Virus record (IMG/VR): IMGVR_UViG_3300042380_000187 | Span: 1-41,565 of that record | Reading direction: 5' to 3' (one strand) | Origin: a virus | Length of the DNA: 41,565 nt | Part shown: positions 17,047 through 41,565 of the stretch, in pieces | How positions within the stretch are numbered: the stretch's first letter is position 1 | Layout of the letters: the number at the start of each line of letters is the position of its first letter | Position numbers and translations under genes: made by a program | The notes under the pieces: generated by a model | What the model was told of the DNA's origin: nothing | Database searches by the model: none | The model's input: the letters and a program-made list of their open reading frames with translations, nothing else

Positions 17047-20000
17047 ATGCCGCAAGAAGTCTTCATCCCATCCAAGAACAAGACGCTCACTTTTGCGGAC
17101 GACTTTACTGAGCAAGAGATTGGCGAGTACATCGACCAGAACTTCCCGCGCACAGGGGAGGACGTGGCCTATGACCTTAAGAACCGCTTGCTCGACCCAA
17201 GCTGGAACCCGACCTACGACGATTTTGAGAAGCTAAGGAGCTACAATAAGAGCAAGGACATCGACACCGCAGAGGTGGTTGGCAGCATTTTCGATGGGGC
17301 TGTGCAAATGGGAAGGAACCTGCTTGGAGCCATCCCAGCAGTTGCGTCCGATCCAGCTTCAGTCCCTGGTTCGCTGGTGCGTGGATTAGCCAACAATATC
17401 GAGAACTACTCCATGCTGGCACAAGGTGGCACAAGCCCAGGCTCGCCGCTCTTTGAGCTAATGAACGGGGATAGCGCAACGGCATACTCCACTTGGCGCG
17501 ACTCCATCAACGCTGCACGCTCCCTGCACGAGACGAGCAACGCCGCTATTGCCGGAATGCCAGTGAACCCGCAGCAGGTTGCAGCGGCAGAGATTGTCGC
17601 TGACCCAATGAACCTTGTTCCCATGGCGGGAGTCGGAGGCAAAGCCGCAGCTATGGCAGCTAAGGCCGTTGGAGCAGCGGGGAAACTAGCTGAACGCGCA
17701 GGGAAAGCAGCAGTTCGTGTAGCAACGTATCCAGAGCGCATGCTTGCTGGAGCAGCAGAGAAACTCGCCGGAGTGCCTGCAAGCGTGGCAGAGCGTACCG
17801 CACAAGATTTAGCGACTAAAGCAGCGGTTGTGGATGTGGCGACAGGCTTTATTCCAGGGGCTACGGAGATTGCAGCAACCAAGGCAGCAGGGCGCGGAGT
17901 TGCCGCAGCAGGAGAAGCTGTAGCCGCAGCAGCAGGGGAAGCAGTAGGTGGAGCAGGGATGCTCAGTTCCGTTGAGAAAGCTGCGATGAACCCCAACCTC
18001 AGCACTGGGGCGAGAGCAATCCTCAATGTCACCGCAAGGCTTATCCCACGGGACGCTGCGCTTATTGCTTCAGATGCTACCAAAGCTGGGCTTATTGGCG
18101 CAGGGATTGGTGGAGGACTTGGCTACTTGCAGAGCAGGGACGAGAAGGAAATCGGGCAGGCTATCGGTGGAGGACTCGCAGCAGGAACCATTATTGGTGG
18201 CGGCCTCAAGCTGTACGATGTCGCAAGCGGCAAGGTGGCAAAGGAGCGTGTGTTCAACGATGCAGCTAGGAACATTGAGAAAGCACAAGCTGCCGGTGAG
18301 ACTCCTGCCGACATTGGATTCCGTGCAGACCTGTACGACCGTCTTGGCAAGATGGATCGCAAAGGGGAGGCTCTTGGCACGTTCCTCGCAATGGACGACC
18401 TCATTTCCCAGCGGGGAGGCAAGGTCAAGGTGGTGGATGGCGATATCGTCAAAGGCCCAGGGGGAGAGACGGGCTGGAACGCTTACTTCGATCCCAAGGA
18501 CAAGACCATCTACATCAACTCCAAGAGCGCAGATGCCACAACGCTCCCGCACGAAGCTGTCCACTCGTTTGTAGCCGACAGGCTTGCAGATGACATCACT
18601 GCACGCATTTTCACCCGTGACGCTGACGGCAGGTTGCAGCAGACGGTGCCAGGAGGGGAGATTGCCAAGCTCATCGAAGGGTATCTCAAGGATGCGGACA
18701 ACGTGGACTTGGGCGATGGCACAACTGAAGGGCAACGCTTGCGCGAGAGACTTGATGCTGCATTTGACCCAGCAACTCCAACTTCGGAGCAGGTCAGCAG
18801 ACTGCGGGACATCACGCATGAAATCACTGCTCGCTATGCCGAGGACTGGGTGAAGAAAAAAGGCCCACGGGACTTCTTGCCTGGAACTATCCCAACCATT
18901 TGGGGCGAAGCTATCAGTGCAGTTCGAGGGAAGCTGGATCAGACCTTTGGACGCAATACGGGCAATCCGATTCTAGACCCTGTCCTCAAGCGCATCTTTG
19001 ACCCCAAAGAAACCGGAGTGCCTGAGCGCACATCAATCCCTCTCGACCCGCGAGCGTTGTCCTACGATTGGTCGGACAAGAAGGGGATGTTCATGACTCG
19101 CTACACGGCGAAGAGCGAAGCTAGGGGCGAGCAGCACTGGCGCGAAGTCACGAAGGTTGTGGAGCCTATCCTAAAGGCAGCAGGCGGAGAGACACCAGAA
19201 AGCGACAAATACTCCAAGAACAACATCTCACTTCGCAACGTCGGAGAGGATGTCATCAACTCGCTGACCACTCGCAACATCGAGACAGACCTGCGCTCTT
19301 CAGCACCTATCATGGGGGTCAAGGAAGCCGAGATGACCAACACGCTCATTCGGGCGATGAAGACTGGGGAGCTTGTGGATTTGCGGGATTACATGGCATT
19401 CCTCAACGAAGGGAAAGCCGAGTCTGGCGTAGCGCGGCAAGGCACTCCGCAGGATAAGCGAGTTGCTGTTATCGACGTCTTCTGGAGCAAGGACAACGGG
19501 GTGCAGGCACTCACGCTGGATATCGCATCAGCCATGTCTCGCCTAGCAAAAGCGGTGAAAGCCAAAGGAGATGCCTCTGGGTTCACTTCGGTTGCGGAAG
19601 CGCAATCAGCATTGAGCCAGTACCTGCGCCATGTTGCAGACTCCGAGACGAACTTCGATGCAGCCAAGAAAGGCTGGGAAATCGAGATTGGCGGACGTCC
19701 AATGGGCAAGACAGCGCACAAGACGCTGCACGAGGCTCTAGGTGTGCCTGACATTGGCAAGAGCGGACTGCCTCCATTCCGACCGGACATTGCTATTGGC
19801 CGAGAAGGCATCAACCGCATCAGCGGGATTGAGTTTGTGCTCCCACGCCGAGTGACAGGGCAAGCTGTGCAAACGGGGGTTATCACGCCGATTAGCAACA
19901 AGGGAGTGGACGCTGTTCAGCGGAGGTTCCAGCCCAACCGCACGGCAGTCGAAAATCTGCCAAATGGCATGGTGGCACAAGACGCTGATGGTGCTCGCAT

Positions 20001-21762
20001 CGTCAAGACGGACACATCGGGCTATCGCCTGTTCGACCCGCTAGGTGAGCGCATCGGCGTGTTCAGCACGCTGGAGAAAGCAGCAGAGGCAGCTACAGCA
20101 CAGGCTGGAAAAGATTTAGCAACCGTAAAGGAGATTCAATATGCCATTCAAGAGCAACGCGCAAAGGAAGTATCTGTACGCCAACGAGCCCAAGATCGCG
20201 AAGCGGTTCGCCAAGGAAACGCCCAAGGGCAAGAAGCTGCCGGAGCACGTTTCCAGCCGACAAAAGAAGAAATCCAAATAGCCAACAGAACTGCACGGAC
20301 AGCAGGTGCAGTGGGAGGGAAGGCTATCACTCCGCGATATGTTGCCGACACGATTCGTCCAGGTCAGTCGGTGTTAAACTTCGGCGCAGGCAAGCCGGAA
20401 ACGCAAGGGCCATTAGCTGGCAAGTACAAGCACTCAGAAACCATTCGGGAGTCTGGAGGAATTGTCAGTGAATACGACTTCGGAGACAACGCAACTGGCT
20501 CACTGGGAAGGCAGCACGATGTCACCATGGCGTCGAATGTTCTTAATGTGCAGCAGTCAGATGCAATGCTTCGCTCGACGCTCAAGCAAATCAAAGACGC
20601 TACAAAAGACGGTGGAAGAATAGTTTTCAACTATCCATCAAATCCTCGTAAGTGGCTAATTGACGGAAAGGAAGCATCGCCAACACAAGTTGCTAGAGTC
20701 ATTTCTGAAGAGTATGGTGTTCAGCCAAGAATCGTAGGTGGCACTTCATCCGCTCCGCTTTGGGAGGTTAGCGTTGAATCAGGCGTTCGCTTCCAGCCTA
20801 AACGGAAGAAGGATACGCTTCCCAAAACCCCATTTGCCATGGGGCAGCAGATTGAAGCTGGCATCCGTGCAGCCAAGAAAGCTGACGTAGCGCAAGTCCG
20901 CGAGCGCATCACACGAGAAGGCACTGGCACTTCCGCTGAACGTCTGGCCGCGCAAGAAGCAATGGCGCAAGAAGCTGCGCTCTTTGCCAAGCCAAAGAAG
21001 GTGGCATTGTCCGACGAGCAGATTGCGGCTATCCGCGATGCAGGCATTGCTGAGACGTATGTGAGAGCACTCCTCAACTTTGAGGACGCATACACCAAGC
21101 TCACTGGGGAAGAGCCTGTCGGCAAAGCATATCGCAACGAAGCGATGAAGATGACTTCGCGCCAAAAGGACGCAATCCTCAGACTGGCTCTGTCCTCCGA
21201 CTTGCCACAAGCAAAGCTGGCAATGGAAGTCGCTCGTGAAGCAGCAGGCCCAGCAATGCGGACGGCAATCGAGAGGATGTTTGAAGCGCAACAACGCGCA
21301 GCAGAGCGTCCACCAACAAAGCAGGAAGCTGGTGTTGAGGATGTTCGCCGCTCATTGCAGACGGTTCTTCCGCAAGACTTTGGAGTGCCATCCATGCGCG
21401 AGCTTCAAGGACTCCGCAGGGGCGTTCGTGAAGCAACTGAAGGAGCATTACAGGACGTGCGTGCAAGAGGCGAAGCAGAAGCCACACAAATCGCAGCAGA
21501 ACGCGAAGCAAAGCTAGCACAAGTCGAGGAATCAGCCACAGAGGCGGCAGCAGCACTGAGTGAGGAAATGGCGCAACGGTTCAAGAAGATTGAGGCAGAG
21601 ATTGCTAAGGCAGAAGAAGTTGTGACAGCAGAGCAAGAGCCGATTCGTAAAGACCGCATCATCCTCAAGCTCAACGGAAAATATCGACTCTACGGAGCAA
21701 CTGCTGGACTCATCGGGGTGTTTCGGAATAGAGAAGACGCCATAAAGAAAGCCAAAAAATGA
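17047..21762 (+). CDS. Giant internal virion (ejection) protein with HExxH and methyltransferase-like domains
   Basis: This 1571-residue protein is the largest in the genome and sits where podoviruses encode gp16-like ejection proteins. The N-terminus (EVFIPSKNKTLTFADDFTEQEI) leads to Ala-rich helices and an apolar Gly-rich segment near residues 350-390 that could cross a membrane. A zinc-peptidase-like motif, HEAVH at 502-506, follows a strand pair (GWNAYFDPKDKTIYIN). Around 1100-1260 a methyltransferase-like domain appears, with VLNFGAGKP as the SAM loop, DVTMASNVLNV, and DGGRIVFNYPSN. Two YRL(F/Y)...IGVF motifs (about 992 and 1545) and three RFQP linkers (about 960, 1068, 1248) separate domains. 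The C-terminus is a long coiled coil. The layout recalls polyvalent phage proteins delivered with DNA. Confidence 0.8.
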   Translation: MPQEVFIPSKNKTLTFADDFTEQEIGEYIDQNFPRTGEDVAYDLKNRLLDPSWNPTYDDFEKLRSYNKSKDIDTAEVVGSIFDGAVQMGRNLLGAIPAVASDPASVPGSLVRGLANNIENYSMLAQGGTSPGSPLFELMNGDSATAYSTWRDSINAARSLHETSNAAIAGMPVNPQQVAAAEIVADPMNLVPMAGVGGKAAAMAAKAVGAAGKLAERAGKAAVRVATYPERMLAGAAEKLAGVPASVAERTAQDLATKAAVVDVATGFIPGATEIAATKAAGRGVAAAGEAVAAAAGEAVGGAGMLSSVEKAAMNPNLSTGARAILNVTARLIPRDAALIASDATKAGLIGAGIGGGLGYLQSRDEKEIGQAIGGGLAAGTIIGGGLKLYDVASGKVAKERVFNDAARNIEKAQAAGETPADIGFRADLYDRLGKMDRKGEALGTFLAMDDLISQRGGKVKVVDGDIVKGPGGETGWNAYFDPKDKTIYINSKSADATTLPHEAVHSFVADRLADDITARIFTRDADGRLQQTVPGGEIAKLIEGYLKDADNVDLGDGTTEGQRLRERLDAAFDPATPTSEQVSRLRDITHEITARYAEDWVKKKGPRDFLPGTIPTIWGEAISAVRGKLDQTFGRNTGNPILDPVLKRIFDPKETGVPERTSIPLDPRALSYDWSDKKGMFMTRYTAKSEARGEQHWREVTKVVEPILKAAGGETPESDKYSKNNISLRNVGEDVINSLTTRNIETDLRSSAPIMGVKEAEMTNTLIRAMKTGELVDLRDYMAFLNEGKAESGVARQGTPQDKRVAVIDVFWSKDNGVQALTLDIASAMSRLAKAVKAKGDASGFTSVAEAQSALSQYLRHVADSETNFDAAKKGWEIEIGGRPMGKTAHKTLHEALGVPDIGKSGLPPFRPDIAIGREGINRISGIEFVLPRRVTGQAVQTGVITPISNKGVDAVQRRFQPNRTAVENLPNGMVAQDADGARIVKTDTSGYRLFDPLGERIGVFSTLEKAAEAATAQAGKDLATVKEIQYAIQEQRAKEVSVRQRAQDREAVRQGNAQGQEAAGARFQPTKEEIQIANRTARTAGAVGGKAITPRYVADTIRPGQSVLNFGAGKPETQGPLAGKYKHSETIRESGGIVSEYDFGDNATGSLGRQHDVTMASNVLNVQQSDAMLRSTLKQIKDATKDGGRIVFNYPSNPRKWLIDGKEASPTQVARVISEEYGVQPRIVGGTSSAPLWEVSVESGVRFQPKRKKDTLPKTPFAMGQQIEAGIRAAKKADVAQVRERITREGTGTSAERLAAQEAMAQEAALFAKPKKVALSDEQIAAIRDAGIAETYVRALLNFEDAYTKLTGEEPVGKAYRNEAMKMTSRQKDAILRLALSSDLPQAKLAMEVAREAAGPAMRTAIERMFEAQQRAAERPPTKQEAGVEDVRRSLQTVLPQDFGVPSMRELQGLRRGVREATEGALQDVRARGEAEATQIAAEREAKLAQVEESATEAAAALSEEMAQRFKKIEAEIAKAEEVVTAEQEPIRKDRIILKLNGKYRLYGATAGLIGVFRNREDAIKKAKK

Positions 21763-22000: not shown

Positions 22001-22666
22001 ATGCGATTAGTAGAACTCAGTGACGTTGCTGGCCTCTCCGACGGAGAGATTGTTCCAGCGGTAAAGGCAGTGGTGAAGGCAGTGTTTCCACCACGCACAG
22101 GGCAAGGCAAGCATGGCGAATGGCGTGTTCAGAACGCTATCCTCACACAGAACGGCACAGAAGTGCGTGCATCTTTCTGGGGAATCGACGTGAGCGATTT
22201 GAAGGGCAAGGAAGTGTGCTTGCAGTCGCAGGCAGGCAAGCGTGGCTTGGAAGGTATCAAAGTAAAACTCAATGATCAGAAGGGCGAAAACGAACTTAGC
22301 ATCACCGACAAAGTCCGGTTCGATGGGCCAAACGCAGGGACTGCTCCCTCTAGCTCCAAGACTTCAGCGTCAGCTTCGCCCCAGCCGATTGTCGCCACCG
22401 ACGTGGATGGTGTACGGAAGAGGGCAATGCAGTTGGCGAACCTCTATCTTGTGGCACATCGCGCTGCTAAGTGGGTTAAGGATGAGAACCCCGAAGTGGA
22501 TCTCCCTGCTGCTACCGCTACTCTATTTATCGCTCTCAACAAGGGCAGCCTAGAGAACGCGATGCCAACACATCCGCTTGACCAAGCTCCAGCCAAGGCA
22601 GCTCCGGCCAAGAAAGAGCCTCTGTTTGCGGAGGAAGACTTAACCGAGGATGACGTGAAGTGGTAA
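22001..22666 (+). CDS. Single-stranded DNA-binding protein-like
   Basis: This 221-residue protein has an N-terminal strand-rich region (about 25-105) with GEWRVQNAILTQNGTEVRASFWG and the pattern of an OB fold, then a Ser/Ala/Pro linker, a helical part (RKRAMQLANLYLVAHRAAKWV) and an acidic tail ending EEDLTEDDVKW. Acidic tails with a terminal aromatic residue are used by SSB and T7 gp2.5 to contact partners. It heads the replication/recombination cluster and ends in overlap with the RuvC-like gene. The helical domain is not part of classical SSB, so the identity is probable and not proven. Confidence 0.6.
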   Translation: MRLVELSDVAGLSDGEIVPAVKAVVKAVFPPRTGQGKHGEWRVQNAILTQNGTEVRASFWGIDVSDLKGKEVCLQSQAGKRGLEGIKVKLNDQKGENELSITDKVRFDGPNAGTAPSSSKTSASASPQPIVATDVDGVRKRAMQLANLYLVAHRAAKWVKDENPEVDLPAATATLFIALNKGSLENAMPTHPLDQAPAKAAPAKKEPLFAEEDLTEDDVKW

Positions 22667-23136
22667 ACTTCGCTGCCATTGATCCTGGGGTGAAGGGCGG
22701 AATCGCCACCTGCATTGAGGGCAAAGTCAGTGCGTGGAGCATGCCATCCTCTCCCGTTGAACTAGCAGAGCAACTTCGCCAGCTTTCATTGTCTGGGGTT
22801 TATGTCGAAGATGTTCCTAAGTTCACAGGGAAAAACATCCCAGGTTCAATGGTGGCAGTCTTATTCCAGTCCGTGGGCGTAGTGCTAGGGGTTTGCGCTG
22901 CGCTCAACCTGCCCGTCATTATGGTAAAGCCCAAGGAGTGGCAAAAGGCGTGCGGCGTGGGTGGACGAGACGGACTGACCTACAGCAAGTGGAAGCAGAA
23001 GCTGCGTGACGTTGCGCGGATGCGCTTCCCTGAAGTCAAGGTGACGCTAGAAACAGCCGATGCCCTGCTAATGGCATCCTCATACATACATGCAAATACA
23101 CATACAAACGAAGGACGGCCACAGCATCACGATTAA
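22660..23136 (+). CDS. RuvC-like Holliday junction resolvase
   Basis: This 158-residue protein has the RNase-H-fold resolvase pattern: AAIDPGVKGG with Asp8, VYVEDVP with Glu50, a KPKEWQK block and ETADALLMA with the C-terminal acidic pair near residue 130. It would cut branched DNA before packaging and in recombination. The start is a GTG that overlaps the end of the SSB-like gene, and no ATG is available before the catalytic Asp. The last 20 residues overlap the next gene and are not conserved-looking. Confidence 0.8.
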   Translation: MVNFAAIDPGVKGGIATCIEGKVSAWSMPSSPVELAEQLRQLSLSGVYVEDVPKFTGKNIPGSMVAVLFQSVGVVLGVCAALNLPVIMVKPKEWQKACGVGGRDGLTYSKWKQKLRDVARMRFPEVKVTLETADALLMASSYIHANTHTNEGRPQHHD

Positions 23137-23542
23137 GTTCGATGCTGAAGGAATCTCAATCGACAAGGAAAGCTTGGTTGAGGAAGATCGAGAGGTAATC
23201 GCTGAGACGCACCCAGAGCTTATCGAGGCTCCAGAGAAGCCAGACGAGCTTCCTGCGAGGCCGGACGACACATGGCCATGGTATTTCCCTAGCCGAGACA
23301 GAGCATGGTACAGGCTCAAGGAACAAGACTATCGGGATTTCACACGCTCGTATGGTCGGGAGTTGGTTGAGAAGGAGTTGAAGGTCATCCTCATGTGGAG
23401 CAACGCGAACTTTTCAAAAAGGAAGTCGCTGCGTGGCATGATGCGGTTTATCAACTCGTGGCTCTCACGGGCCTATGCACAAGCTCCAACTGCCAAACCG
23501 TCCCTCACGAATGCGCCACAAAGCACAGCAACAAGCTGGTGA
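23090..23542 (+). CDS. Putative primosomal / helicase-loading protein
   Basis: This 150-residue protein starts MQIHIQTKDGHSITIKFDAEG, has an acidic/Pro linker, and ends with YGRELVEKELKVILMWSNANFSKRKSLRGMMRFINSWLSRA. The last segment, K-x-x-RGM-x-RFINSWLSRA, is the typical C-terminal helix block of phage replication-initiator and DnaT/DnaD-like primosomal proteins. It directly precedes the DnaB-like gene and overlaps it by 68 bases, which supports a role in helicase loading. The exact family is not certain. Confidence 0.55.
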   Translation: MQIHIQTKDGHSITIKFDAEGISIDKESLVEEDREVIAETHPELIEAPEKPDELPARPDDTWPWYFPSRDRAWYRLKEQDYRDFTRSYGRELVEKELKVILMWSNANFSKRKSLRGMMRFINSWLSRAYAQAPTAKPSLTNAPQSTATSW

Positions 23543-24212
23543 TTCTGTCACCTTGACCGTCCCGTCCTGCGATGAAGCAGAGCGTGGTCTAGCCTCGATT
23601 GCGCTGAACCACCCGAACGAGTTCCTACACGCTTCCATGGAGGCTAGGCTCAGTCCATCGGACTTCAGTAACCCATTGTGCAAGATGGTTATTGAGGTGG
23701 TGCTTGAGCAGACCACACGCAATGCCTCGTGCGATTTGCGTATAGTTTACGAAAAGCTACGCGAAAAGAATCCTGCGATTCAGCTCCATGAAGTCTCCGA
23801 CCTGTACCACTTGTGCGGAGTTGTGCAGGCGATGCCGGAGTTCATCAACCTGGTGCGTGGCGCGAGCAAACGCAGAGCTTTGATGATGCTGGCTTACCAA
23901 GCCGTTCAAGACGCTCAGACAAACGAGCAGCCCACTTCGGACTTGATCGCTGCGCTCTCCATGAAAGTGGATGCGCTCATGCGGGAGACAGTGCCGCCAA
24001 AAGCGATGGACACGAAGAGCCTGCTTGTTGATGCAGCCAAGCGATACCAAGAGGGGGATGACTCTAGCATGCGTATCTCCACTGGCTTTAAGAAATTGGA
24101 CGACATGTGCCCTATTCGGTACGGTGACTATGTGGTCATCGGCGGGGAAACCAAGAGCGGCAAGACGATGCTTGCGCTCAACATCATAAGCAACTTACTG
24201 AACAAACAATGA
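23475..24212 (+). CDS. Split DnaB-like replicative helicase, N-terminal half
   Basis: This 245-residue protein carries the N-terminal helical domain of DnaB (CDEAERGLASIALNHPNEFL through MKVDALMR), the linker, the start of the RecA-like domain (STGFKKLDDMCPIRYGDYVVIGG) and the complete Walker A motif GETKSGKT at residues 224-231. It stops 14 residues later, at LLNKQ, where DnaB normally continues into the SLEM strand. That continuation is encoded separately at 25485-26099. The stop overlaps the next start by ATGA, so translation appears coupled. Alone it cannot hydrolyse ATP because Walker B and the arginine finger are missing. Confidence 0.85.
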   Translation: MHKLQLPNRPSRMRHKAQQQAGDSVTLTVPSCDEAERGLASIALNHPNEFLHASMEARLSPSDFSNPLCKMVIEVVLEQTTRNASCDLRIVYEKLREKNPAIQLHEVSDLYHLCGVVQAMPEFINLVRGASKRRALMMLAYQAVQDAQTNEQPTSDLIAALSMKVDALMRETVPPKAMDTKSLLVDAAKRYQEGDDSSMRISTGFKKLDDMCPIRYGDYVVIGGETKSGKTMLALNIISNLLNKQ

Positions 24213-24517
24213 AAGTAGTGAATTACATGGCGCATGAGGTAGACGCATGCGGGAACAAGTATCCTCCATCGGGGCATGTTGCTCGTGTGGCGACAACGCT
24301 CCGAAAAGTCGGGGACATCGACGGAATTCCGTTGATGGTGTGCGATTCTGGCGCAGTGCAGAACTGTCCGCCCAAGAAGGATGGCGTTGTTTACATCGTG
24401 TCGCAATACGTCCGCCAAGCGTTGCCAGAGCGCAGCGATCTAATCTCTCCAGCGAAACTGCACCGAGATAACAACGGAAAGGTTGTTGGCTGTGGGGCAT
24501 TTGAAAAGAACCCATGA
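24209..24517 (+). CDS. Conserved small phage protein inside split helicase
   Basis: This 102-residue protein (MKVVNYMAHEVDACGNKYPPSGHVAR) contains VYIVSQYVRQALPERSDLISPAKL and GKVVGCGAF. I recognise the layout, with N-terminal N-x-x-xH, a SGHVARV block, YIVS-x-x-V-x-QA and a final GK-x-xGC-x-x-F, from a widespread family of small phage proteins of unknown function. It begins on the stop of the helicase N-half and ends on the start of the nuclease gene, so it belongs to the inserted segment. Confidence 0.7.
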   Translation: MKVVNYMAHEVDACGNKYPPSGHVARVATTLRKVGDIDGIPLMVCDSGAVQNCPPKKDGVVYIVSQYVRQALPERSDLISPAKLHRDNNGKVVGCGAFEKNP

Positions 24518-25296
24518 TAACGAAGATACATACAGATATGGAAGCCCTGGACTACAGGGCTGCACACGGCCTGAGCAAGCACGAGTTCGACGCATTCTGT
24601 TTTGCGCCAGTTCTCTATAAGCATCGGCACGAGCACAAGAAAACGAGCAAAGCCATGGAGATGGGGACGGTCATCCACTCTCTGGTATTGGAGAACCGAG
24701 TCGAATACGCAGTTCTCCCTGCGGACACGGACAGGCGCACCAAGGCTGGCAAGGAGGCGTACCAGGCTTTCTGCGAGGACAACACTGGCAAGTACATCAT
24801 CACCGCCGAAGAAGAGCGCATGGTGCTTGGGGTGCAAGCCGCTGCAACGCCAATGCTGGACGAAATCACTGAAGGCTGTAAGCGCAAGGTGGCTGAGGCA
24901 TCCATGTTCTGGGAGCGTGGAGGAGTCCAATGCAAGGGAAGGCCCGACCTCATCGTGCAGCAGGGAGGCAGGTTCATCTTGGTTGACCTCAAAACCACCT
25001 CCGGCATTGCAGCGTTCGACCGCAACTTCTTCTCGCTCAAGTATCACTGGCAAGCTGCATGGTACATGTACGGGCTGCACAAGACGCTGAATGTGCCGCT
25101 GGATGAAGTGGAGTTCTACTTTGCTGTTGTTGACACAGAAGAGCCTCACTTGGCGCAGGTTGTGATTCCGGCTACCCCGCTTATCCAAGAAGCGCAGGAC
25201 TCGATAGATGCTGAACTGGAACGCTTTGCTGGCTGCGTCAAAACCGACACATGGCCTGGGCTTCCCAAACGGAGGATTATCCATGGCCGCGACTAA
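24514..25296 (+). CDS. RecE/Exo VIII-like PD-(D/E)XK nuclease inside split helicase
   Basis: This 260-residue protein has the ordered active-site pattern of phage RecE-type and RecB/Cas4-fold nucleases: MGTVIHSLVLE with His55, GRPDLI with Asp145, LVDLKTT with Asp158 and Lys160, and HWQAAWYMYG with Gln180. These enzymes resect double-stranded DNA for recombination together with a single-strand-binding or annealing protein; the SSB-like gene lies about 2 kb upstream. The first ATG overlaps the upstream stop. A second in-frame ATG at 24538 sits one base after an ACATACAGA element, so the start may be there, giving 252 residues. Its position within the helicase gene is highly unusual. Confidence 0.82.
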   Translation: MITKIHTDMEALDYRAAHGLSKHEFDAFCFAPVLYKHRHEHKKTSKAMEMGTVIHSLVLENRVEYAVLPADTDRRTKAGKEAYQAFCEDNTGKYIITAEEERMVLGVQAAATPMLDEITEGCKRKVAEASMFWERGGVQCKGRPDLIVQQGGRFILVDLKTTSGIAAFDRNFFSLKYHWQAAWYMYGLHKTLNVPLDEVEFYFAVVDTEEPHLAQVVIPATPLIQEAQDSIDAELERFAGCVKTDTWPGLPKRRIIHGRD

Positions 25297-25531
25297 CTGG
25301 ACGGTCATTCGCATCAGCACGGTGGTCAAAAAGCTCAAGCTGCCTAGGCCAAAGATTGTGCGGACAGTCTTGTTCACAGGCACTTACGATGCGTGCGAAG
25401 ATTTTTTGAAAGAATTCAAAAAAGACCTAAAGCCCGTGGACAAATCCACCGATGACATAAAGGTAGACTTCACCATCACCAAGAATGGACGCAACACAAC
25501 CAGCGCAAGGCCAGGTAACGGGCAAAGGTAA
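25283..25531 (+). CDS. Unknown small protein inside split helicase
   Basis: This 82-residue, basic protein (MAATNWTVIRISTVVKKLKLPRPKIVRTV) has strand-rich N-terminal half, a helix (YDACEDFLKEFKKDLK) and a tail overlapping the helicase C-half in another frame. GGAGG seven bases before the ATG is one of the best Shine-Dalgarno sites in the region and decides this start over the upstream ATG at 25208. It overlaps the nuclease by 14 bases and the helicase C-half by 47 bases. No family is recognised. Confidence 0.6.
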   Translation: MAATNWTVIRISTVVKKLKLPRPKIVRTVLFTGTYDACEDFLKEFKKDLKPVDKSTDDIKVDFTITKNGRNTTSARPGNGQR

Positions 25532-26099
25532 GATTCTGGTCATCTCGCTTGAGATGCCAGCAAGTCAAATCCTTGACCGTCTCGTGGCCAAGCAAGCCAA
25601 TGTGTCGCTTCGGACGCTGGCAGAAGGCGTGAGGAACGAGGGAGACTTCCGGCGTGTCGCCACGGCTATCTCGAATCTTGCACGCACTGGGCTGGTTGTA
25701 CGGGACGACCTGTACGACCTTGCTAGCATCTGCGCTACAGCACGGGCTATGGCAAAGAGCGGCGGGTTGGAGGCAATCGTTGTCGATTACATCCAGCTCG
25801 TGCGGTTCGATCTTGGCAAGGATGGCACTCGTGAGCGGGAGGTAGCCGAGGTTTCTCGTGGACTCCGCTTGCTGGCCATGGAACTCAAGTGCGTCCTGTT
25901 TGCGATTACTCAGCTTAACGAGGCTGGCAAGGCTCGTGAGTCTAGGGCGATTCAGCAGGATGCAACTGCGGTTCTGGTGGTGAAGGTCGAAGACGAAGAA
26001 TACCGTGAAATCTCCATTCCTATCCAACGCAACGGCCCCTGCGGGGTCAGCACATCACTCCGCTTCAGCGGAAAAACAGCAAGTTTTCACCACGATTAA
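25485..26099 (+). CDS. Split DnaB-like replicative helicase, C-terminal half
   Basis: This 204-residue protein supplies the parts of DnaB missing from 23475-24212: SLEMPASQILDRL (motif H1a), Walker B in IVVDYIQLVRF near residue 101, the FAITQLN sensor block, and the arginine-finger strand QRNGPCGV near residue 182. Walker A is absent. The conserved sequence begins about 13 residues after the ATG, at GKGKILVISLEM, exactly where the N-half stops. It has no strong Shine-Dalgarno site and overlaps the preceding gene by 47 bases. The halves together give about 440 residues, a normal DnaB size, and are in the same reading phase. Confidence 0.85.
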   Translation: MDATQPAQGQVTGKGKILVISLEMPASQILDRLVAKQANVSLRTLAEGVRNEGDFRRVATAISNLARTGLVVRDDLYDLASICATARAMAKSGGLEAIVVDYIQLVRFDLGKDGTREREVAEVSRGLRLLAMELKCVLFAITQLNEAGKARESRAIQQDATAVLVVKVEDEEYREISIPIQRNGPCGVSTSLRFSGKTASFHHD

Positions 26100-26765: not shown

Positions 26766-26914
26766 ATCTGCCAAGCTGGTACGACCGTTGGCTAACCAAC
26801 GATCCGAATGAACAGCCCGAAGCACCGGACTGCCGTTGCGGGACGATGATGGAGTGGAACGAGATGAGCGAAATGCTCAAGTGCCCCGAATGCGAGAAGG
26901 AGGTGCAGCAATGA
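26762..26914 (+). CDS. Short zinc-ribbon-like protein
   Basis: This 50-residue protein has two cysteine pairs, DCRCG near residue 25 and KCPECEKE near residue 43, about 14 residues apart, a simple zinc-ribbon pattern. The remaining sequence is Trp- and Met-rich. ATGA overlaps link it to both neighbours. It may be a small nucleic-acid or protein adaptor. Confidence 0.55.
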   Translation: MNLPSWYDRWLTNDPNEQPEAPDCRCGTMMEWNEMSEMLKCPECEKEVQQ

Positions 26915-27225
26915 CAAACGATCAAATCAACGCCGCCATCGCCGAAGTGTGTGGGTGGACTGAAATCGGTATCTGCGATTGCGGGTTCAAGATTGGCGGA
27001 ATGCCGCCGTATCGGTCAGCACATAAAAAGCACATTCCAGATTACTGCACCGACTTGAACGAGATGCACCATGCGGAGGACTTTTTGCGCGGGAATGAGT
27101 TCCTGCGATACGCCGAAATGCTGGATTCCATCATTGGGAGTTTAAACGGCATTCGAGCAATCGCACGCGAGCGTGCAGAAGCGTTTCTCCGTGTGCTTGG
27201 CAAATGGAAGGAGGTGCAGCCGTGA
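26911..27225 (+). CDS. Phage ABA-sandwich (BC1872-like) protein
   Basis: This 104-residue protein (MTNDQINAAIAEVCGWTEIG) contains HIPDYCTDLNEMHHAEDFL and ends RERAEAFLRVLGKWKEV. The N-terminal I-x-x-A-x-AE-x-CGW, the central PDYC-x-DLN-x-MH-x-AE and the final RAEAFLR-x-LGKW are the pattern of a very common small phage protein called the phage ABA sandwich or BC1872 family; its role is unknown. The ATG overlapping the previous stop is preferred to an upstream in-frame ATG at 26836 because the family begins here. Confidence 0.75.
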   Translation: MTNDQINAAIAEVCGWTEIGICDCGFKIGGMPPYRSAHKKHIPDYCTDLNEMHHAEDFLRGNEFLRYAEMLDSIIGSLNGIRAIARERAEAFLRVLGKWKEVQP

Positions 27226-40543: not shown

Positions 40544-41542
40544 ATGCCACAAGATGAAACACAACCTGTGTCGCAGTCGCAGGGGGAAGAAAGTTCTGCG
40601 GAACAAGTCGGTTTGCTCGATGAGTATTCGCTTAGTGCGATGATCAAAGACACGTTCCTATCCGACGAGGGACAAGCACAAGCTCCCGCTCAAGAGGAGC
40701 AATCGGCAGAGGAGGAGGAAGAGCCGCAGGCTGAAGAAGCCGAAGCTGAAGAATCCGAATCTGAAACGCAGGAAGAATCGGAAGAAGAATCCGAAGAATC
40801 CAGCGACGATGTGTCCAAGGGCGTTCAAAAGCGAATCAACAAGTTAGTTGCCGCTAAGAAAGCTGCCCTTGCTGAAGCGCAAGCCTACAAGGAGAAACTC
40901 ACGGAGCTTGAGAGCAAGCTCAATGAGGCTCCAGCCCAAATCGCAAAGCAGGAGAACATCTCTGATGCAGTTGCCAAGCTCACGAGTATTGAGCAGGTGG
41001 ATGCAGAGTGGAGAAAAGCTACTGAGGTGCTGATGTGGTGCGAGGAGAATCCAGATGGCGGCGTTATTCAGATGCCTAATGGCGAAGAAGCTGATGTGGA
41101 TGAATCCCAAGTGCGGCAAATGAAGAAACTTGCGCTCCGGCGCAGGGAACTGGAGTTGCCAGCACGAAGACAATATCTGCTAGTTGAGCGAGAAGCTGAA
41201 GCTCAGACGGTGAAGGAGTTCCCATGGTGGAAAGACCCTTCTACGAAAGAGTATCAGACCGCCCAGCAGGTGTTGAGGGACTTCCCAGAAATTCGGGCCA
41301 AAAGAGCAGACTACAAACACATCGCGGGGATTGTTGTTCTGGGAATCCAAGCATACCAAAACATGCAAGGAAAACAGGCAGCAGCACCCAAGCCTATCAA
41401 GCGAGCACCAAGCCAACCCGCAATCAAGGCTGCGCCTGTGGTTAAGGACAATGGCAAAAAGGTGTTTGATAGCTTCGCTAGAAACAACGGTGACTCAAAG
41501 CTGTTCTCTGACCTGCTCAAAGCCAAAGGTTTCGTAGATTAA
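40544..41542 (+). CDS. Scaffolding protein
   Basis: This 332-residue protein has a strongly acidic, unfolded first third (EEEEEPQAEEAEAEESESETQ region), then a coiled coil (RINKLVAAKKAALAEAQAYKEKLTELES), a Trp-containing helical region (EWRKATEVLMWCEENPDGG; KEFPWWKDPSTKEY) and a basic Pro/Ala linker leading to the C-terminal capsid-binding type helix. Position between portal and capsid genes and composition are those of podovirus assembly scaffolds. It is the complete copy of the gene truncated at the window start. Confidence 0.85.
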   Translation: MPQDETQPVSQSQGEESSAEQVGLLDEYSLSAMIKDTFLSDEGQAQAPAQEEQSAEEEEEPQAEEAEAEESESETQEESEEESEESSDDVSKGVQKRINKLVAAKKAALAEAQAYKEKLTELESKLNEAPAQIAKQENISDAVAKLTSIEQVDAEWRKATEVLMWCEENPDGGVIQMPNGEEADVDESQVRQMKKLALRRRELELPARRQYLLVEREAEAQTVKEFPWWKDPSTKEYQTAQQVLRDFPEIRAKRADYKHIAGIVVLGIQAYQNMQGKQAAAPKPIKRAPSQPAIKAAPVVKDNGKKVFDSFARNNGDSKLFSDLLKAKGFVD

Positions 41543-41565
41543 CAACTCAATACTATGCCTCTATT
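41280..41565. repeat. Right copy of contig-end overlap
   Basis: Same 286-base segment as 1-286, with five substitutions: synonymous at 47 and 92, and amino-acid changing at 66, 89 and 159 (left-copy numbering). It shows that the genome continues from this end into the capsid gene. Confidence 0.9.

Follow-up and report, generated by a model that had tools for sequence, protein, structure and literature searches.

Several phage enzymes are encoded by genes in pieces and made as two polypeptides without splicing. The NrdA of Aeromonas phage Aeh1 (mobE) is fully active as two unspliced polypeptides, gp43A and gp43B of phage 25, also unspliced, purify together with polymerase activity, and the large subunit of the T4 topoisomerase (mobA) is a further enzyme of this kind (PMC2988022). 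Among the MEP401-type OM43 phages, most members of an aquatic group encode their DNA polymerase in two open reading frames (ORFs) with a small ORF between them (PMC10580990). The subject here is a DnaB-type helicase encoded in two parts, its Walker A motif in one gene and its Walker B motif in another, by a virus of IMG/VR (record IMGVR_UViG_3300042380_000187, positions 1 to 41,565; this whole stretch of 41,565 bases is called the window below). Fractured phage genes with split inteins, reportedly including a gp41 helicase, are said to have been described by Dassa and colleagues in 2009 (cited in PMC10448857).

Like the Aeh1, phage 25 and T4 enzymes, the helicase of the window appears to be a single enzyme made as two polypeptides that no splicing joins. 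Those earlier cases concern other enzymes, have their split beside a homing endonuclease or an untranslated spacer, and are found in single phages or small groups. In the clade of the window, by contrast, a DnaB-type motor is affected, the cut passes through the ATP site, the whole clade carries it, and recombination genes lie between the halves. The OM43 polymerase is a close parallel in scope, but it is not a helicase, and its authors raise intron and homing possibilities (PMC10580990). In fractured genes of the intein type, too, other genes separate the two parts of a phage replication gene, but those parts reportedly carry split-intein halves that rejoin the protein, for which the window clade has no room. 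The DnaBs of other phages (P1 Ban, Marinomonas phage P12026 and phage C75C1) share domains and motifs with the enzyme of the window, with 30-34% identity over the C-terminal chain (for which INPHARED gave 535 matches), and C75C1 also has a distant portal protein in common with the window phage. Each of these is nevertheless encoded by a single gene for 441-454 residues, whereas in the window clade the gene breaks off after Walker A and resumes ahead of strand 2. The open-licence literature searched yielded no description of an intein-free DnaB with Walker A and Walker B on separate chains, and to our knowledge a clade-wide, splicing-free cut at this place is new.

Complementary halves of a DnaB-type helicase

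The upstream gene (23475..24212, plus strand) encodes an N-chain of 245 residues which, by PF00772, PF03796 and the family alignment, comprises the N-terminal collar domain, the linker helix, strand 1, Walker A (GGETKSGKT) and the next helix, and which ends in LLNKQ. The downstream gene (25485..26099, plus strand) encodes a C-chain of 204 residues with H1a (SLEM), Walker B (VVDYIQL), H3 (AITQLN) and the arginine-finger motif (IQRNGPCG, with QRNGP inside it), identified by PF03796 and alignment; it lacks Walker A. This division, as well as the presence of three genes between the halves with a RecE-like nuclease among them, had been read from the bare letters in the original prediction and is borne out by the profile matches. 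In Pfam, the N-chain contains the DnaB N-domain PF00772 above the cut-off (E 2e-6) and covers only positions 2-45 of the 255-position DnaB_C model PF03796, while the C-chain covers positions 47-254 (E 2e-32), the two being complementary segments with no profile overlap. Relative to the 454-residue chain of 2r6a, the N-chain profile ends at residue 228 and the C-chain profile aligns from 233. This places the cut in the loop that joins the Walker A helix to strand 2, and about four residues are absent there. The record has no third DnaB_C match, and so no intact DnaB; a second intact helicase is what the original prediction had named as evidence against its reading.

Compared with the DnaB family (helicase superfamily 4, SF4), the locus has the N-terminal domain, by PF00772 and by fold match to DnaB N-domain structures, and all of the expected motifs (Walker A, H1a, Walker B, H3 and the arginine finger), present and invariant but divided over two chains. 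A core on a single polypeptide is what it lacks. Its layout is that of genes in pieces: two ORFs, each with its own start and stop, encode complementary parts of an enzyme, and no splicing element was found. In the C-chain stretch IPIQRNGPCG (about 26018-26047), cellular DnaB has a lysine two positions ahead of the finger arginine (KQRNGP), where the clade has I or Y throughout.

Structure models of the single chains agree with these assignments. In the AlphaFold model of the lone N-chain, the collar is confident and residues 217-236, including the P-loop, fall below 50 on the predicted local distance difference test (pLDDT), as expected for a fragment without its sheet. The model of the C-chain matches DnaB cores in the PDB (E 3e-12). 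That of the N-chain matches DnaB (E 9e-7) and also the isolated DnaB N-domain structures 2r5u.

Conservation and origin of the split

Relatives were collected by IMG/VR scans with the C-chain as query and then with C- and N-chain alignments; up to 80 loci were listed per scan, and the figures given here refer to the loci listed. The first C-chain query returned at least 74 loci, and every one with both flanks shows the same split, in the order N-chain, small protein, nuclease, basic protein, C-chain. Over all scans, at least 89 distinct N/C pairs, at least 100 distinct N-chain ends and at least 91 distinct C-chain starts were found. A stricter regular expression identified no fused form among the 89 distinct pairs, a statement that holds for the IMG/VR loci listed. 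Two loci flagged as fused by a looser expression (L085 and L119) owe this to a chance GKT in the upstream open frame. Likewise, none of 22 sister records of 39-45 kb, which are near full length, contains an intact DnaB, each having exactly two partial DnaB_C matches. Pattern scans for an unsplit form (Walker A ETKSGKT followed by SLEM within 54-84 bases) revealed no uninterrupted close relative and no empty site among the close relatives found, and the uninterrupted DnaB that the original prediction had proposed to look for in related phages did not emerge. Two candidates for unsplit close relatives, L107 and L108, are unrelated DnaBs with a similar P-loop that lie on a very long branch outside the clade.

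This uniformity extends over considerable divergence, as N-chain identity to that of the window falls to 35-37% among the relatives. KSGKT is invariant in the N-chain family alignment, as are the H1a, Walker B, H3 and finger motifs of the C-chain. The ends of the two genes are also preserved. The ATG of the C-chain lies exactly four codons before the xxxxSLEM strand (M-x-x-G-ILVISLEM) in 71 of 74 non-redundant loci, and the codon before it is an in-frame stop or the locus edge in 15 loci. The N-chain stops about 11-40 residues past GKT. Three loci depart from the four-codon start, the window and two of its near kin: their C-chain start overlaps the basic-protein gene, which lengthens the chain by 8-12 residues. 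In the window this leader has 12 residues (MDATQPAQGQVT), so that the downstream start given in the original prediction stands for the window but is a feature of its close kin only. One contig (L070/L267) has a frame break within the N-chain.

Both halves evolve under purifying selection. For pairs with unsaturated synonymous divergence (dS), the ratio of nonsynonymous to synonymous substitution rates (dN/dS) per whole half is 0.05-0.13, and about 0.05-0.09 for the N-chain. For the 45 codons that end the N-chain and hold the P-loop, it is 0.02-0.12, apart from one very close pair with 0.37 on few changes. Strong constraint on a P-loop in the N-chain and on a Walker B in the C-chain would make sense only if the two chains meet.

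When unsplit phage DnaBs serve as outgroups, the tree places the split sequences on one side of a branch with 100/100 support and a long stem. The split or unsplit label needs a single change on this tree, a value as low as which was reached in none of 500 shuffles. The closest unsplit row is phage C75C1, at 89/84, a weak support on a long branch. Judged by these sequences, the fission looks ancient and of single origin, and not like a recent accident. A homing-type insertion, later displaced by the recombination genes, is possible as its original cause.

The genes between the halves and their surroundings

Three genes on the plus strand separate the halves, and each of them is present, in the same order, in 74 of 74 non-redundant loci. 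The first encodes a small protein of 102 residues (24209..24517) identified by its match to phrog_30542, and its ATG overlaps the stop of the N-chain (ATGA). Relatives of this protein occur in unrelated phages of Paenibacillus and Microcystis and in an Altiarchaeum virus, with no known function. The second encodes a RecE/exonuclease VIII-like PD-(D/E)XK nuclease (DUF3799; 24514..25296; PF12684, E 1e-20; phrog_412, E 1.5e-51), whose codon use matches that of the structural genes. The third, just upstream of the C-chain, encodes a small basic protein (25283..25531) with no Pfam or PHROG match. Its longest ORF reads 25208-25531, but the ATG at 25283 (MAATNWTV...) is the probable start, since the relatives begin at the corresponding place, with MSDWVLIRRT..., and mostly end TSARPGNGTR/KR. 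The strikingly constant tail TSARPGNG(T/K/Q)R, together with an internal LPRPK motif, can be seen in the window (25283-25531), in L072 (5672-5920) and in L017 (5762-6016).

The spacer between the halves ranges from 1.3 to 3.8 kb across loci, and the spacing of the middle genes varies by up to 1.7 kb through other inserted genes. Genes gained or lost between the halves lie at L007:2202-2888, L010:5007-6020, L053:4535-5005, L086:4168-4650 and L103:2827-3636; named by eye, they include a possible cytosine methyltransferase, a kinase-like protein and a ThyX-like gene, among others.

The record seems close to a complete genome because its ends (1-286 and 41280-41565) overlap by 286 bases. Of these, 281 are identical and 5 mismatched, which suggests a genome that is complete, redundant or circular and carries slight noise from assembly. 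An SU10-type capsid protein, a large terminase and ThyX are also encoded, as is a RuvC-like Holliday junction resolvase upstream of the helicase region (22660..23136, plus strand; phrog_1770, E 1.2e-17). Before it lies a possible single-stranded-DNA-binding protein (22001..22666, plus strand), named from the look of its sequence and matched by neither Pfam nor PHROG. A protein of 1571 residues (17047-21762) with an apparent methyltransferase-like stretch inside it (SVLNFGAGKPETQ...) is probably a virion protein. Small paralogues that start MTNEQIN... and end ARQRAEAFLRTLGKWEE are repeated several times per genome, as in L048, L051, L017 and the window (26836-27225). The sole relative in a species genome (L103, JAFMIZ010000069.1) is a 13-kb contig in a metagenome-assembled genome of Pedosphaera (Verrucomicrobiota); it is also split and gives a weak hint to the host. 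Shine-Dalgarno sequences are not enriched at C-chain starts across the clade, possibly a sign that the host starts translation without them.

A probable two-chain helicase and its alternatives

An ancient gene fission that gave rise to an obligate two-chain DnaB, co-folding without splicing, is very probably the explanation of this locus. A single break in an ancestral phage dnaB would have separated the Walker A helix of the RecA-like core from strand 2, at the loop that connects them, and a run of recombination genes (the small protein, the exonuclease VIII-like nuclease and the basic protein) would have come between the halves, each of which became a gene with its own stop and start. The N- and C-chains would be translated apart and then co-fold. 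In a RecA-type sheet the P-loop strand occupies the middle position. The last 40 or so residues of the N-chain would consequently have to build into the sheet of the C-chain, making the pair obligate. Six N/C pairs are envisaged to form a DnaB-type ring of twelve polypeptides, in which each ATP site would take Walker A from an N-chain, H1a and Walker B from its partner C-chain, and the arginine finger from the neighbouring C-chain. Such a ring would unwind the phage fork, probably with host primase and polymerase, which are proposed because neither a phage primase nor a phage polymerase was detected among the window ORFs scanned. It is also conceivable, if rather doubtful, that the cut is useful and not just tolerated, with helicase assembly controlled by the joining of a P-loop chain and a Walker B chain. 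Assembly might then be helped or gated by the small proteins whose genes invariably lie between the halves, and helicase loading might be coupled to the recombination nuclease that the shared message also encodes.

Several points weigh against a working two-chain enzyme. Association of the chains, ATPase activity and unwinding are predictions. The single-chain models are of moderate quality, with pLDDT 69 for the N-chain and 72 for the C-chain (one chain per prediction). With I or Y in place of the lysine before the finger arginine, the chemistry of the ATP site may differ from that of cellular DnaB. In addition, a Shine-Dalgarno sequence precedes the C-chain start in only 11 of 74 loci against a background of 22%, and separate translation of the C-chain rests for this reason on the conservation of its start and of the stop codons.

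The original prediction had left the choice between a working helicase of two chains whose ATPase core is divided, an intron-like element and a nuclease-linked mobile insertion. Clade-wide conservation, purifying selection and the lack of an intact copy give the first strong support at the level of sequence. Removal of an intron-like element (group I, group II or other) from the RNA would restore one continuous DnaB, and joining the flanks in the window does give a near-seamless protein of about 437 residues. This is nonetheless highly improbable. Neither the window nor any of 12 diverse relatives has an Rfam match, such as one to the catalytic RNA core of a group I or II intron, and the insert conserves neither its ends nor its content, apart from three coding genes that never change order. 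The C-chain keeps its ATG, with a stop directly upstream in some loci, and the N-chain tails differ in length yet still end in a stop codon. That the removed length is a multiple of three, as had been pointed out for the window, is a local coincidence: the spacing from N-chain to C-chain is 0, 1 and 2 modulo 3 in 41, 27 and 23 cases, respectively (91 loci, some redundant). Because it is not constant, neither read-through nor a recent in-frame insertion explains the arrangement. The phase of the spacing is by itself no argument against an intron; what does argue against one is that no catalytic RNA is present, that the content varies and that start and stop codons are fixed. Rejoining of the halves by a split intein through protein trans-splicing has a published precedent in fractured phage genes with split inteins and homing endonucleases (Dassa et al. 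2009, as cited in PMC10448857). It is scarcely credible here, where most C-chains have only four residues before strand 2 and leave no room for a C-intein, the N-chain tails past GKT are short (about 11-40 residues), and no intein domain is among the Pfam matches.

A recent mobile insertion of the homing-endonuclease type, which would have disabled this phage's gene or only just split it, is suggested by the nuclease gene in the gap and by the split phage genes that homing endonucleases have produced elsewhere (PMC2988022). It is very unlikely in view of the split in every relative found, down to the most divergent N-chains, and of the low dN/dS. The insert of the window contains no homing endonuclease (LAGLIDADG, GIY-YIG, HNH or VSR-like); its only nuclease is the DUF3799/exonuclease VIII-like protein, a recombination enzyme with the codon use of the structural genes, and spacers differ in length and content. 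The nuclease-linked insertion is for these reasons set aside, and describing the locus as an insertion at all is only partly right. Finally, the halves could have diverged, the N- or the C-chain taking a new role, such as poisoning or recruiting the host DnaB, with no phage helicase assembled. In keeping with this, the DnaB N-domain folds alone, as its confident model and the match to an isolated N-domain indicate. Such a divergence is unlikely, however, as Walker A and its helix are strongly constrained on the N-chain, where they would be useless without the C-chain, and the C-chain retains all of its motifs unchanged.

Replicative helicases belong with the best conserved of all motors, and one continuous RecA core is commonly assumed to be required for their ATP site. 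In this group of uncultured phages of about 40 kb, annotation should be corrected accordingly, since each half alone resembles a broken or partial helicase gene. If the two-chain reading is true, these phages would also offer a ready-made split helicase for study and engineering, in which each half could be separately labelled or switched. More broadly, a natural, long-lived and widespread DnaB whose Walker A and Walker B belong to different proteins would then show that nature can build a RecA core from two chains.

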